DNA from: Alloactinosynnema sp. L-07
GTDB lineage: Bacteria > Actinomycetota > Actinomycetes > Mycobacteriales > Pseudonocardiaceae
Reading direction: 5' to 3'
Length of the DNA stretch: 64,000 bases
NCBI RefSeq assembly: GCF_900070365.1
Contig: NZ_LN850107.1
Location: 7,316,001 to 7,380,000, forward strand
Under the pieces are notes generated by a model. The model had not been told where the DNA came from. It searched no databases and was given only the letters and a program-made list of their open reading frames with translations. Every line of letters begins with the position of its first letter. The first letter of the stretch is position 1. Position numbers and translations under genes: made by a program. Of the stretch, positions 14,973-30,642 are shown one piece after another.

Positions 14973-15725
14973 ATGCATAAGCTCTCGGTGCGCCGGGGTG
15001 GCGCGGTCGGCCTGATGGCCGCCGCCGCGCTGCTGGTCGGCGCGCTACCCGCATCGGCCGCCCCAGGCGACGGTTCGGCTTACGTCGCCTCCGCGAACCT
15101 GACGCTGCTGGGATCGCCCGCGGTCAACGTCGCGCCGCTGGCGCCGAGCAACACCGACGGCCCGACCACGGCGCAGCTGGCCAGTCTCAACATCCCCACC
15201 GTGGTCTCCGCGGGCGTGGTCACCAGCCGGGCGGAGCGCGACGACGCGACCGGCGCCGTGCACGCCGAGGCCGACCTCGCCAACGTGCAGATCGCGCTGG
15301 CGGGTCTGGGCTCCATCGGTGCGATCGAAGCCGTATGCGACGCCACCCAGGCGGGCAACTCCGGCACGACCACCCTGGCCAACGTGCAGCTGGCCGGGGT
15401 GACCGTGGGTGCGAGCCCGGCGCCGAACACCACGATCTCGGTGCCGTCCGGCCCGATCCCGCCGCCGCTGGTGTCGATCACCTTCAACGAGCAGATCAAC
15501 AACCCCGACGGCAGCCTCACGGTCAACGCGGTGCACATCAAGCTCAACGCCCTCCTCGGCACCGGTGACGTGATCCTCGGCCAGGCCCGGTGCGGGCCTG
15601 CGGCCCCGCCGATCCCGATGGCCTCGGGCGCTGGTCTGTGGATCGGTCTCGGCCTGCTGGGCGTGGCCGCGATCCCGGTCACGATCACGGTGCTCCGCAG
15701 GCGCGCGCTCACCGCGGCCGGATAG
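14973..15725 (+). CDS. Secreted 'choice-of-anchor' type surface protein
   Basis: A 250-residue exported protein. ATG 14973 has GGAGG at 14963-14967. The signal peptide ends near A-L-P-A-S-A-A. The mature part is an all-beta-looking domain (S-A-Y-V-A-S-A-N-L-T-L-L through G-D-V-I-L-G-Q-A-R-C-G) with a likely disulfide between the two cysteines (V-C-D-A-T and A-R-C-G). The C-terminus has P-I-P-M-A-S-G-A-G, a hydrophobic helix and L-R-R-R, a processing-and-anchoring tail without LPxTG. Similar actinobacterial proteins occur with interchangeable anchors. It is divergent from the exosortase operon (252-bp spacer, relatively AT-rich, promoters presumed) and is its most likely substrate. Confidence 0.75.
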   Translation: MHKLSVRRGGAVGLMAAAALLVGALPASAAPGDGSAYVASANLTLLGSPAVNVAPLAPSNTDGPTTAQLASLNIPTVVSAGVVTSRAERDDATGAVHAEADLANVQIALAGLGSIGAIEAVCDATQAGNSGTTTLANVQLAGVTVGASPAPNTTISVPSGPIPPPLVSITFNEQINNPDGSLTVNAVHIKLNALLGTGDVILGQARCGPAAPPIPMASGAGLWIGLGLLGVAAIPVTITVLRRRALTAAG

Positions 15726-15742
15726 CGGCGGGAGGCCAGAGC

Positions 15743-15910
15743 GTGTACCGAGCTCCAACCGGAGGCGCCATCGTCGGCGGCGGCGCGGGCTTGGCGGCCA
15801 CCGGTGCCAACGTCGGCTGGTGGATCGCCTTGGGGATCGTGCTGCTGGTGCTGGGTGCGCTGCTGCTGCACGCGTACCGCAGGCGTCAGTACACCGCGGA
15901 AGTCGATTAG
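15743..15910 (+). CDS. Small LAATG sortase-substrate-like peptide
   Basis: A 55-residue protein starting at GTG 15743 with GGGAGG upstream and 17 nt after the preceding gene. It has no signal peptide of its own and is essentially an anchor: A-G-L-A-A-T-G-A-N (LAxTG motif, residues 17-21), the hydrophobic run W-W-I-A-L-G-I-V-L-L-V-L-G-A-L-L-L, and A-Y-R-R-R. LAxTG is the motif cut by class E sortases of actinobacteria; no sortase gene is in the window. The lack of an N-terminal signal means it may insert by its single helix. Its TAG stop codon is the first three bases of the 165-bp palindromic element copy A. Confidence 0.65.
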   Translation: MYRAPTGGAIVGGGAGLAATGANVGWWIALGIVLLVLGALLLHAYRRRQYTAEVD

Positions 15911-16072
15911 TGCTGTGTCCATGAGCGTTGTCGGGCTATCGGCGGATCCAGGTTTCCGCTGGGCGTGCCGCCGGAATGCCGCTCGTACCGGGTGTGCTTG
16001 GGCGTTTCGGCGGTGCGGCCGGCGGGAAGCTGGGCCGTCGAGAGCCTGGCAACGTTCGTGGACACGGCACTA
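15908..16072 (+). repeat. 165-bp palindromic element, copy A (possible structured RNA)
   Basis: One of two 165-bp copies (other at 30478-30642). Outer arms 15908-15936 and 16044-16072 pair over 29 positions with five deviations, all G-U wobble if the + strand is RNA. The core shares long identical blocks with copy B: 15937-15962 (T-A-T-C then GGCGGATCCAGG…), a CGTACCGGG around 15984-15992, and 16015-16043 (one difference). Within the core, TCGGCGG pairs with CCGTCGA and CCGCTGG with CCGGCGG. Beyond the first six bases (TAGTGC) the arms have no resemblance to those of copy B. It begins in the stop codon of the 55-residue gene. Confidence 0.8.
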
Positions 16073-16150: not shown

Positions 16151-17410
16151 GTGGAGGTCCTGCTCCTGGTCGGCACCAGGCCGGAGGCGGTGAAGGCGGC
16201 GCCGGTCGCGCTGGCGCTGGCCGACCACCCGGTGCTGCGGCCGGTCATTATCCACAGCGGACAGCACGTGGGCATGGTCGAGCAGGCGCTGGCCCCGTTC
16301 GGCTTGGCGCCGGCGGAGGCGCTGGCGGTGACCAGGGGCGGCGGCGGCCAGGCCGAGCTGATGGCCGAGGTGCTGCCCGAACTCGAAGCCGTGCTCACCC
16401 GCAGGCGCCCCGCCGCGGTGATCGTCCAGGGCGACACGACCACCACCCTGGCGGGCGCGCTGTGCGCGTTCTGGCAGGGGATCCCGGTGGTGCACCTGGA
16501 GGCGGGCCTGCGCACCGGCGACCTGGCCGCGCCGTTCCCCGAGGAAGGCAACCGGCAGATGGTCGCCCGGGTCGCGGCCCTGCACCTGGCGCCGACCCCG
16601 GACGCCGCCGCCGCGCTGCGCCGCGAGTCGGTCCCCGACCGCGACATCGTGATCACCGGCAACACCGTCGTCGACGCCGTGCGCCACATCGCCGCGGCCG
16701 ACCAGCCCGCCACCAACCCCACCCTGGCCGCCGTCGAGGCGCTGCCCGGGAGGCTGGTGCTGGTCACGGTCCACCGCCGCGAGTCGTGGGGCCCGCCGCT
16801 CAACGAGGTGCTGTGCGCCGTGCGAACCCTGGTCGAGCGGCACCCAGACGTCCATGTGGTGCTGCCCACCCACCCGAACCCGGCGGTCCGCGCCCAGGTC
16901 CACGCCGTCCTCGGCGACGCCGACCGGGTGGCAGTGACCCCGCCGCTGGACTACCCGGACCTGGTACGCGCGCTGCGCCGGGCCGCGCTGGTCATCACTG
17001 ATTCCGGTGGCATCCAAGAGGAAGCGCCCACCTTCGGCGTGCCCGTCCTGGTCGCGCGCGAGGTCACCGAACGCCGGGAGGCCGTCGACGCGGGCTGCGC
17101 GTGGCTGGTCGGCACCAGCGGTCCAACACTGCTGGCCCACGCCGACCACATCCTGCGCACCGGCCTGCGCGTGCCCGCCGACAGCAACCCGTTCGGTGAC
17201 GGCCACGCCGCCGCCAGGGTCCGCGACGCGGTCGCGCGGCTGCTGGGTCAGCCGACCTTGGGTTCCCCGACGAGCCCGACCTGGGCCTCGCGCAACGTGG
17301 TCAGCGCCGACTCGGTGGTGGCCGCGGCGACGCCCGCGGTCAGGTCGAGGAGCACGGTCGTGCTGAACCCGTCGCGCGCGGCGTCCATCGCGGTGGCCCG
17401 GACGCAGTGA
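16151..17410 (+). CDS. wecB: UDP-N-acetylglucosamine 2-epimerase, non-hydrolysing
   Basis: This enzyme interconverts UDP-GlcNAc and UDP-ManNAc in the cytosol, for cell-surface polysaccharides. Family blocks are clear: G-T-R-P-E-A-V-K-A-A-P near the N-terminus, V-Q-G-D-T-T-T-T-L-A-G-A, H-L-E-A-G-L-R-T-G-D, P-E-E-G-N-R-Q-M-V, V-H-R-R-E-S-W-G, and T-D-S-G-G-I-Q-E-E-A-P. GTG 16151 has AAGGAGAG upstream. Homologous sequence ends near residue 366 (V-A-R-L-L-G). The remaining ~50 residues are read through the antisense 3' end of pncA and look like a non-homologous tail caused by loss of the normal stop. The neighbouring GT2 could use a derived sugar. Confidence 0.92.
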   Translation: MEVLLLVGTRPEAVKAAPVALALADHPVLRPVIIHSGQHVGMVEQALAPFGLAPAEALAVTRGGGGQAELMAEVLPELEAVLTRRRPAAVIVQGDTTTTLAGALCAFWQGIPVVHLEAGLRTGDLAAPFPEEGNRQMVARVAALHLAPTPDAAAALRRESVPDRDIVITGNTVVDAVRHIAAADQPATNPTLAAVEALPGRLVLVTVHRRESWGPPLNEVLCAVRTLVERHPDVHVVLPTHPNPAVRAQVHAVLGDADRVAVTPPLDYPDLVRALRRAALVITDSGGIQEEAPTFGVPVLVAREVTERREAVDAGCAWLVGTSGPTLLAHADHILRTGLRVPADSNPFGDGHAAARVRDAVARLLGQPTLGSPTSPTWASRNVVSADSVVAAATPAVRSRSTVVLNPSRAASIAVARTQ

Positions 17411-29885: not shown

Positions 29886-30005
29886 GCTTCTGGCAGGTCC
29901 GCGATGTCGGCAAGGACAGGCTGCCCTCGCTTTCGGACATCAGGCAGGCTTCTGGCAGGTCTGCGGTGTCGGCGAGGACAGGTCGCCCTCGCTTTCGGAC
30001 ATCAG
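29886..30005. repeat. Tandem duplication of a ~57-63 bp unit
   Basis: Two adjacent copies (29886-29942 and 29949-30005) that differ at only a few positions and share CTTCTGGCAGGTC at the start and CTCGCTTTCGGACATCAG at the end. They lie between the bcp stop (the second copy overlaps the bcp stop) and the glxA start. The complement of the end reads ATGTCCGAAAGCGAGGG. No inverted repeat is strong enough to call a terminator. Confidence 0.75.
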
Positions 30006-30466
30006 ACCTTGAGGTCCTTGCGCAGCTTCGCCACGTGCCCGGTCGCCCGGACGTTGTAGAGGGCGTGGGTGATGACGCCGTCGGGGTCGATGATGAAGGT
30101 CGACCGGATCACGCCGGTGACCGTCTTGCCGTACAGCTGCTTCTCCCCGTAGGCGCCCCACGCGGTCAGCACGGCGCGGTCGGGGTCGGAGAGCAGCGGG
30201 AAGGTCAGGCCCTCGTCGGCGACGAACTTCGCCAGCTTGGCGGGCTTGTCGGGGGAGACGCCCAGGACGGTGAAGCCCGCTTCGTTGAGCTCGCCGAGGT
30301 TGTCGCGGAAGTCGCACGCCTGCTTGGTGCAGCCGGGGGTGGCCGCGGCCGGGTAGAAGTAGACGACCACGGACTTGCCGCGGAAGTCCGACAGCGACAC
30401 CTCGGTGCCCTCGCTGTCCAGGAGCGTGAAGTCGGGCGCTGTGTCGCCCGCGGAGAGACGCGTCAT
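30002..30466 (-). CDS. bcp: Thioredoxin-dependent thiol peroxidase (Bcp/PrxQ)
   Basis: A 154-residue peroxiredoxin that reduces hydroperoxides. The peroxidatic cysteine lies in A-A-T-P-G-C-T-K-Q-A-C-D-F-R-D, with the second cysteine five residues on as in PrxQ. N-terminal A-P-D-F-T-L and C-terminal L-R-K-D-L complete the family. ATG 30466 is preferred; the upstream open frame reads through the palindromic element copy B, whose left end is only 12 bp upstream of the start, so the bcp promoter must lie within or beyond that element. Confidence 0.93.
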   Translation of the reverse strand: MTRLSAGDTAPDFTLLDSEGTEVSLSDFRGKSVVVYFYPAAATPGCTKQACDFRDNLGELNEAGFTVLGVSPDKPAKLAKFVADEGLTFPLLSDPDRAVLTAWGAYGEKQLYGKTVTGVIRSTFIIDPDGVITHALYNVRATGHVAKLRKDLKV

Positions 30467-30477
30467 GACATTGACGC

Positions 30478-30642
30478 TAGTGCAGCACCGCGTTAGTCCT
30501 TCGGGGTATCGGCGGATCCAGGTTTCCGCTGGCAAGGCGCAGGGACAGCGCGCGTACCGGGTTGTACTCGGCTGTTCCTGCAACGCGGCCAGCGGGAAGC
30601 TGGGCCGTCGAGACCCCGAAGGACTAGCGCGGTGCTGCACTA
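30478..30642 (+). repeat. 165-bp palindromic element, copy B (possible structured RNA)
   Basis: Same length and same core as copy A (15908-16072). Outer arms 30478-30506 and 30614-30642 pair over 29 positions with one G-U wobble. The core blocks 30507-30532 and 30585-30613 match copy A almost base for base. The apical stem differs in sequence but still pairs (GCAGGGACAGC with GCTGTTCCTGC), a covariation. Only TAGTGC/GCACTA at the extreme ends is shared in the arms. It lies between bcp and the lipoprotein gene, antisense to both. Confidence 0.82.

Follow-up and report, generated by a model that had tools for sequence, protein, structure and literature searches.

How can two elements of identical length have common internal blocks and carry different arms, when within each element the two arms are complementary to one another? 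This question is raised by the window analysed here, a 64,000-nucleotide stretch of the genome of Alloactinosynnema sp. L-07, in which two 165-nt elements, A (15908..16072, + strand) and B (30478..30642, + strand), are related through their cores and have arms that differ beyond the tips TAGTGC/GCACTA. The first-pass annotation had described the pair in these terms and at these positions, and our analysis agreed with it. With their terminal TA...TA included, A and B scored 146.1 and 159.1 bits, respectively, against a model (R1) built from an alignment of 35 diverse copies. Element A is formed by a left arm (15908..15937), a conserved core (15938..16042) with an apical GTACC...TGTGC hairpin near 15985-16000, and a right arm (16043..16072) complementary to the left one. 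The left arm, core and right arm of B correspond to 30478..30507, 30508..30612 and 30613..30642, its arms being again complementary. Element A starts in a stop codon, as had been noticed: its TAG closes an ORF (15590..15910, + strand) for which no Pfam match was found, and a UDP-N-acetylglucosamine 2-epimerase gene lies downstream (16151..17410, + strand; PF02350, 7.8e-96). Element B was correctly placed upstream of a bcp-type (AhpC/TSA) peroxiredoxin gene (30002..30466, - strand; PF00578, 2.9e-43), the distance to its start being 11 bp and not 12.

On the + strand, both elements form the whole set of 30 outer pairs, and the predicted fold energy of this strand was -139.1 kcal/mol for A, and likewise for B, with z-scores of -14.4 (A) and -18.6 (B) and none of 200 shuffled sequences folding equally well. 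The corresponding values for the - strand were -80.4 kcal/mol for A, with 5 outer pairs broken, and -117.1 for B, with 1 broken; these are the imperfect pairs (five in A, one in B) that had been counted, correctly, from the letters. The asymmetry persisted when A was folded as single-stranded DNA (-68.5 on the + strand, -43.4 on the - strand). At the gathering score, Rfam gave no structured RNA match to the elements, the window yielding a tRNA only.

A and B are members of a dispersed family of ~165-nt mobile hairpins in actinobacteria. With A as query, 44 rows were obtained in the L-07 genome, and 15 places, including A itself, were covered over at least 156 of the 165 bases at 91-100% identity, so that A represents a dispersed subfamily. 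An exact 22-base core pattern matched 59 stretches in named actinobacteria, from the genera Kibdelosporangium, Crossiella, Actinocrispum, Actinosynnema, Amycolatopsis, Pseudonocardia, Actinophytocola and Rhodococcus. Model R1 produced 130 rows in the L-07 genome, many of them both strands of one copy, and at least 73 copies were read out from the best 150 of 11756 first-look candidates; three partial rows of this genome and cut contig copies (e.g. L117, L255) were left out, and the copy at 1594155 lay outside the fetched loci. Matches with E<=1e-6 were present in 42 of 100 genomes, L-07 included. As the best 28 places were scored per relative, copy numbers are lower bounds, and the copies fetched from relatives are a part of those present. 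The collected set comprised 208 copies in 41 clusters, and their same design means that the resemblance between A and B is not due to chance. Lengths of 163-170 nt were found in 204 of the 208, with no transposase gene inside. The L-07 copies have about a dozen arm types on related cores, and 17 of them bear at least one A-type arm, which is thus not unique to A. Many copies do have common arms, as in a MITE subfamily, an outcome that the first-pass annotation had named as contrary to its own interpretation.

One L-07 element (L016, 1120137-1120300) has an A-type left arm and core joined to the right part of another subfamily, and this chimera suggests recombination between elements. An autonomous version formed by the core and a large loop was considered and rejected, as the large loops observed are due to insertion of an unrelated IS. 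Among recurrent neighbour genes, no likely mobiliser was seen in the 40 protein clusters listed as most shared. One survey of palindromes dropped 24 of 119 places, corresponding to poor or cut palindromes and to L029, a duplicate of L030.

Pairing within the family was measured with an algorithm that scored G-T and A-C alike, applied to 204 of the 208 copies (158-172 nt; 41 clusters). The cluster-averaged arms contained 135.5 G-T pairs versus 13.4 A-C, and the same excess was seen per region (31.7:3.6 in the tips, 103.8:9.8 in the arms, 216.7:31.4 in the core and 70.1:10.3 in the apex, averaged per cluster). Arm G-T pairs outnumbered A-C in 37 clusters, were fewer in 1 and tied in 3, and the + strand folded better in 41 of 41 clusters, with one representative each. 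A-C pairs as frequent as G-U ones, which would have spoken against selection on base pairs, were accordingly not found. Within the outer 30 pairs other mismatches were as rare as A-C (G-G 10.7, T-T 10.6, A-G 3.7); inward of these, G-G, A-G and C-T were also common (54-59 each). This wobble-only tolerance in the arms resembles RNA more than DNA. The idea that orientation had been defined by the wobbles themselves was rejected, because a core-only sequence HMM, blind to arms and pairs, gave the same orientation for 208 of 208 copies at 21 bits or more.

Covariation was assessed on 35 sequences and 61 pairs, 92.7% of them paired, in an alignment that had not been fitted to the structure, although the structure was derived from that alignment. 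Double-change cells numbered 387 versus 124.1 in shuffled versions (0/500 as high) and at most 136 in slid versions. The covarying apical stem proposed for A and B was recovered in the wider family (helix 2, with changes on both sides in 9 of 11 pairs), and one U-G pair was kept in 34 of 35 sequences. Conservation of pairing, as the annotation had suspected, is thus a property of the family: + strand pairs are kept, G-U is tolerated and A-C is rare. Young single changes (15 clusters, 107 copies) comprised 42 to G-U, 19 to A-C and 24 to other mismatches, in addition to 18 doubles. So many broken pairs in young copies would indicate that selection acts mainly on which copies spread.

At one orthologous locus, elements of different subfamilies occupy the same place in G010 and G013, and the place is empty in G014 (95% identical to G010 at this locus), G003, the L-07 genome and others. 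The filled sequence in G010 reads CCCGGC-TA[element]TA-GGGT and the empty ones CCCGGCTAGGGT (G003) and CCCGGATAGGGT (L-07), so the change from CCCGG[C/A]TA[G/A]GGT to CCCGGC-TA[element]TA-GGGT corresponds to a 2-bp TA duplication, at one locus other than A or B. TA is the target expected of the IS630/Tc1-mariner family. By analogy with that locus, the first TA of the left arm of A would be one copy of the target duplicate. In the whole collection TA was found at the start of 168 and at the end of 172 of the 208 copies. The base preceding L-07 elements was C or T in 67 of 73 cases and the following base G or A in 69 of 73, which defines YTAR as the preferred target. Such a sequence is often a stop codon, and 29 of the 73 copies touch a gene end there (simple gene caller, counted by eye), and overlap with a predicted gene was limited to 3 of 73. 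In a single gap between convergent genes, elements were found at different TA sites in three species (L-07, G003 and G005; loci L257, L260 and L267), the G003 element being recognised by eye. In-place swap of one subfamily for another at the same site is not favoured, since independent insertions are consistent with both the empty sites and the use of several different TA sites within one gap.

The L-07 genome contains three DDE_3 (IS630-type) matches, two of them within 1181-bp elements with ends TA-GTGTCGCG..., and ends were not detected for the third. A 1268-bp IS630 element of another genome (L317, in G008) has the ends TAGTGCGTTGACCACATTGGTTCGCC and TAGTGCGCTGACCACGAACGTTCACCGGGT, which are resembled by those of the L-07 subfamily 6 hairpins, TAGTGCGTTGACCACGAACGTTCGCCGGGT and TAGTGCGCTGACCACGAACCTTCACCGGGT. 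By eye, the right arm of subfamily 6 fits the IS630 end upstream of the transposase gene, and its left arm mixes both ends. For the A-type arm, a 25-base pattern (3 mismatches allowed) was found in 33 of 390 genomes of the bacterial family, L-07 included, compared with 5 matches for the backward control. At four of the loci (L325, L326, L328 and L335), a complete IS630 element of 1234-1244 bp has an A-type arm at one end, so the left arm of A resembles one end of IS630 elements of other genera; the matching end, TAGTGCTCTGTCCATGAA[C/G]GTTGGCCGG, is close to TAGTGCTGTGTCCATGAGCGTTGTCGGG of A. Both arms of A are nearer, by eye, to the IS630 end upstream of the transposase gene. The ORFs of L325 and L317 scored 167.3 and 164.4 against an NCBIfam IS630 cut-off of 100. 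Several more of the fetched loci with A-like ends were hairpin elements again. In the L-07 genome no IS630 with A-type ends was found, such ends being present there only in hairpins, and no convincing partner was found for the B arm type among the three L-07 IS630 loci with which its ends were compared. PF13358 (DDE_3) was detected in 8 of 16 genomes of the genus, including L-07, and gave no hit in G006 and G015, despite 27 and 28 R1 matches, respectively, among their best 28 places.

Some related arrangements were also observed. At locus L323, A-like ends delimit an element of 315 bp that R1 does not match, and pattern spacing in L323 and G120 suggests further A-like-ended elements of 405 and 449 bp. 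In G010 (L307/L210), a hairpin element abuts an IS630 with TAGTAGCGTGTCGCTGC... ends, the TA being common to both; an Actinosynnema hairpin (L108) is flanked by the same sequence at 85% identity over 347 nt, where a complete IS was not seen.

The tips of the 15 subfamily A copies already include TAGTGC/GCACTA, TAGTGG/CCACTA, TAGAGC/GCTCTA and TAGCGC/GCGCTA. Distinct states were counted against the consensus in the 13 subfamilies (clusters with at least 4 copies), yielding 115 double Watson-Crick changes, 119 changes from Watson-Crick to G-U, 69 from G-U to Watson-Crick, 35 to A-C and 77 single changes to other mismatches. Transversions were involved in 52 of 123 doubles (8 of the 123 start from G-U), and 94 lay in the outer 30 positions. 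Moreover, deletions mirrored in both arms to within two columns were found in the L-07 copies 5329757, 6364761 and 6626641, and one-sided deletions in others, e.g. L-07 5911006 and, in G010, L206 and L215. The paired changes within subfamilies support the earlier proposal that arms are rewritten together. Template switching between arms can create and repair stems and cause multi-base compensatory changes, according to the consulted part of PMC8794818. It best explains the double arm changes, the alternative being selection through unseen intermediates.

The orientation of the 73 L-07 copies splits best at ~5.85-5.90 Mb, and dnaA lies at 5853751. The best split came from scanning origins, with 54 copies observed against a random 95% limit of 48, and dnaA was looked up afterwards. 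Around dnaA, the + sequence is on the leading-strand template in 54 of 73 copies and opposite in 19 (p=5.1e-5), and no bias was apparent on initial inspection by eye or with the contig start taken as origin (36 of 73). Tandem gene contexts showed no preferred orientation (21 sense, 16 antisense), and the biased orientation was found in 16 of the 21 sense contexts and 12 of the 16 antisense ones (counted by hand), leading us to reject gene-strand bias as its cause, as the bias holds whichever way genes run. Counted by hand among the matches listed, 7 of 8 were in the biased orientation in G042, with dnaA at the contig end, and 4 of 7 in G029, without clear bias and with one weak row (E 0.006) left out; the origin of G006 was absent from the contig ends and from the 400 kb fetched. 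The bias would reflect orientation-dependent loss or insertion, in that copies whose stabler strand falls on the lagging-strand template would be lost, or would insert less often. Among 60 of the 73 copies, the G-U:A-C ratio of single changes was 8:3 in 16 copies with + as the leading sequence and 16:4 in the 44 opposite ones. That orientation does not reverse the G-T excess in these small numbers would place selection on the propagating form.

The interpretation that we prefer, to which we assign a probability of roughly two in three, is that the elements are non-autonomous, TA-inserting IS630-type MITEs whose arms are homogenised and whose + strand fold is selected. IS630-family transposases would act in trans, taking the ~28-bp arms as terminal inverted repeats, to judge from the sequence similarity, and arms would differ among elements by following different IS630 ends. 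Template switching would homogenise the near-perfect palindrome and keep the arms complementary; both ends could then change at once and follow diverging IS630 transposases, with the core persisting. The + strand fold, with G-U allowed, would be selected during propagation, more probably as RNA than as single-stranded DNA, since no non-Watson-Crick pair other than G-T is frequent in the arms. A MITE that follows a diverging transposase needs both terminal repeats changed at once, a difficulty that a self-homogenising palindrome would solve and of which this family offers dozens of natural examples. Strand-specific wobble pairing would further imply that one folded strand is read at some point of the life cycle, a step unexpected for DDE cut-and-paste transposition. 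Neither concerted end change nor a single-strand fold is expected of ordinary transposon leftovers.

A second reading, possible but rather doubtful, is that the single-stranded + hairpin itself, as RNA or ssDNA, is the mobile or transposase-recognised form. The arms would then pair into one IS630-end duplex, which would require both to resemble an IS end and to remain paired, with wobble allowed, and copies with + on the lagging-strand template would be excised or lost, generating the orientation bias. If true, this would be a DDE-family element spreading via a folded single strand. We regard as unlikely that these are plain IS630 MITEs, with arms complementary merely as terminal repeats and a palindrome without function of its own. 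IS630 ends do fit two arm types, TA is duplicated at the one locus, and stable folding has been described for MITE transcripts in general (PMC10969869, the portion consulted), but the G-T versus A-C asymmetry, the core common to different arms, the near-constant length and the core covariation would remain unexplained.

A structured host RNA (terminator, RNase III site or riboswitch-like element) selected in host transcripts seems quite improbable: the very stable + strand fold, the RNA-like wobble pattern of the arms and the L-07 copies abutting stop codons would suit it, yet tandem contexts lack a preferred orientation, and the many pair-breaking changes in young copies make selection on each copy not obvious. 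There is little to recommend a local effect of replication, i.e. mutation or mismatch processing with a strand bias where the copy resides; the orientation bias around dnaA and the single substitutions of young copies at Watson-Crick pairs (26 C>T and 16 A>G versus 6 G>A and 13 T>C) are compatible with it, but it predicts a reversal with orientation, and G-U exceeded A-C in both orientations (small numbers). The proposal of the first-pass annotation that arms are rebuilt from each target site can practically be discarded, for although tip bases differ among close copies, the filled site has gained just the element and a TA over the empty ones, TA being all that the target gave at the one locus compared, and the arms recur at unrelated sites and fit IS630 ends.

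Returning to the preferred reading of mobilised, homogenised MITEs, some known systems share part of these features. In REP/BIME with RAYT transposases and in the single-strand transposition of IS200/IS605, it is one strand's hairpin that matters, and elements are oriented with respect to replication. The present family is similar in the favoured fold of one strand and in its replication-linked orientation, and differs in its TA duplication and DDE (IS630) partners; moreover, the leading-strand template carries its + strand, contrary to the IS200/IS605 arrangement. The TA duplication argues against an IS200/IS605-type or REP-type single-strand element with an HUH (Y1) transposase. Correia (NEMIS) and ERIC repeats are palindromic, and RU-1 is the same as ERIC. 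Like the present family they are small mobile repeats, and the consulted parts of the sources describe cleavable transcripts for Correia and ERIC (PMC3049150) and RU-1 as a 127-bp enterobacterial unit (PMC2759123). In contrast to them, the hairpin family is marked by IS630 partners and strand-specific pairing, the features on which it is distinguished here.

The RUP element of Streptococcus pneumoniae, of 107 bp and with repeats like those of IS630-Spn1, is an IS630/Tc1-mariner MITE that is likewise short, non-coding and highly folded with IS630-like terminal repeats, as far as the part of PMC3049150 consulted describes it. Unlike RUP, the family has related cores with many arm sets at ~165 nt across genera, arms that covary, and a strand-specific fold with G-U. 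Homogenisation of imperfect inverted-repeat arms is also known from template-switch (quasipalindrome) correction (PMC8794818, in part); here it is proposed, in difference from known cases, as a route for joint change of transposon ends. IS630-linked MITEs and folded MITE transcripts are thus already known from the consulted parts of PMC3049150 and PMC10969869. In the open-licence literature we found no paper that deals with these hairpins, nor one describing a MITE with concerted arms and strand-specific wobble pairing.

Larger versions were observed in Kibdelosporangium philippinense, where hairpins at six different loci (L067, L073, L085, L086, L102 and L112) carry at the same internal CTA/TAG site a ~1.8 kb insertion, which we take to be IS1182-like. 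This recurrence would come either from movement of hairpins already carrying the insertion or from homing of the insertion to hairpins. At a further locus (L116:4924-6839), the same insertion lies between identical inverted 61-nt copies of the right half of the hairpin, a configuration that looks like the copying of one arm onto the opposite side.
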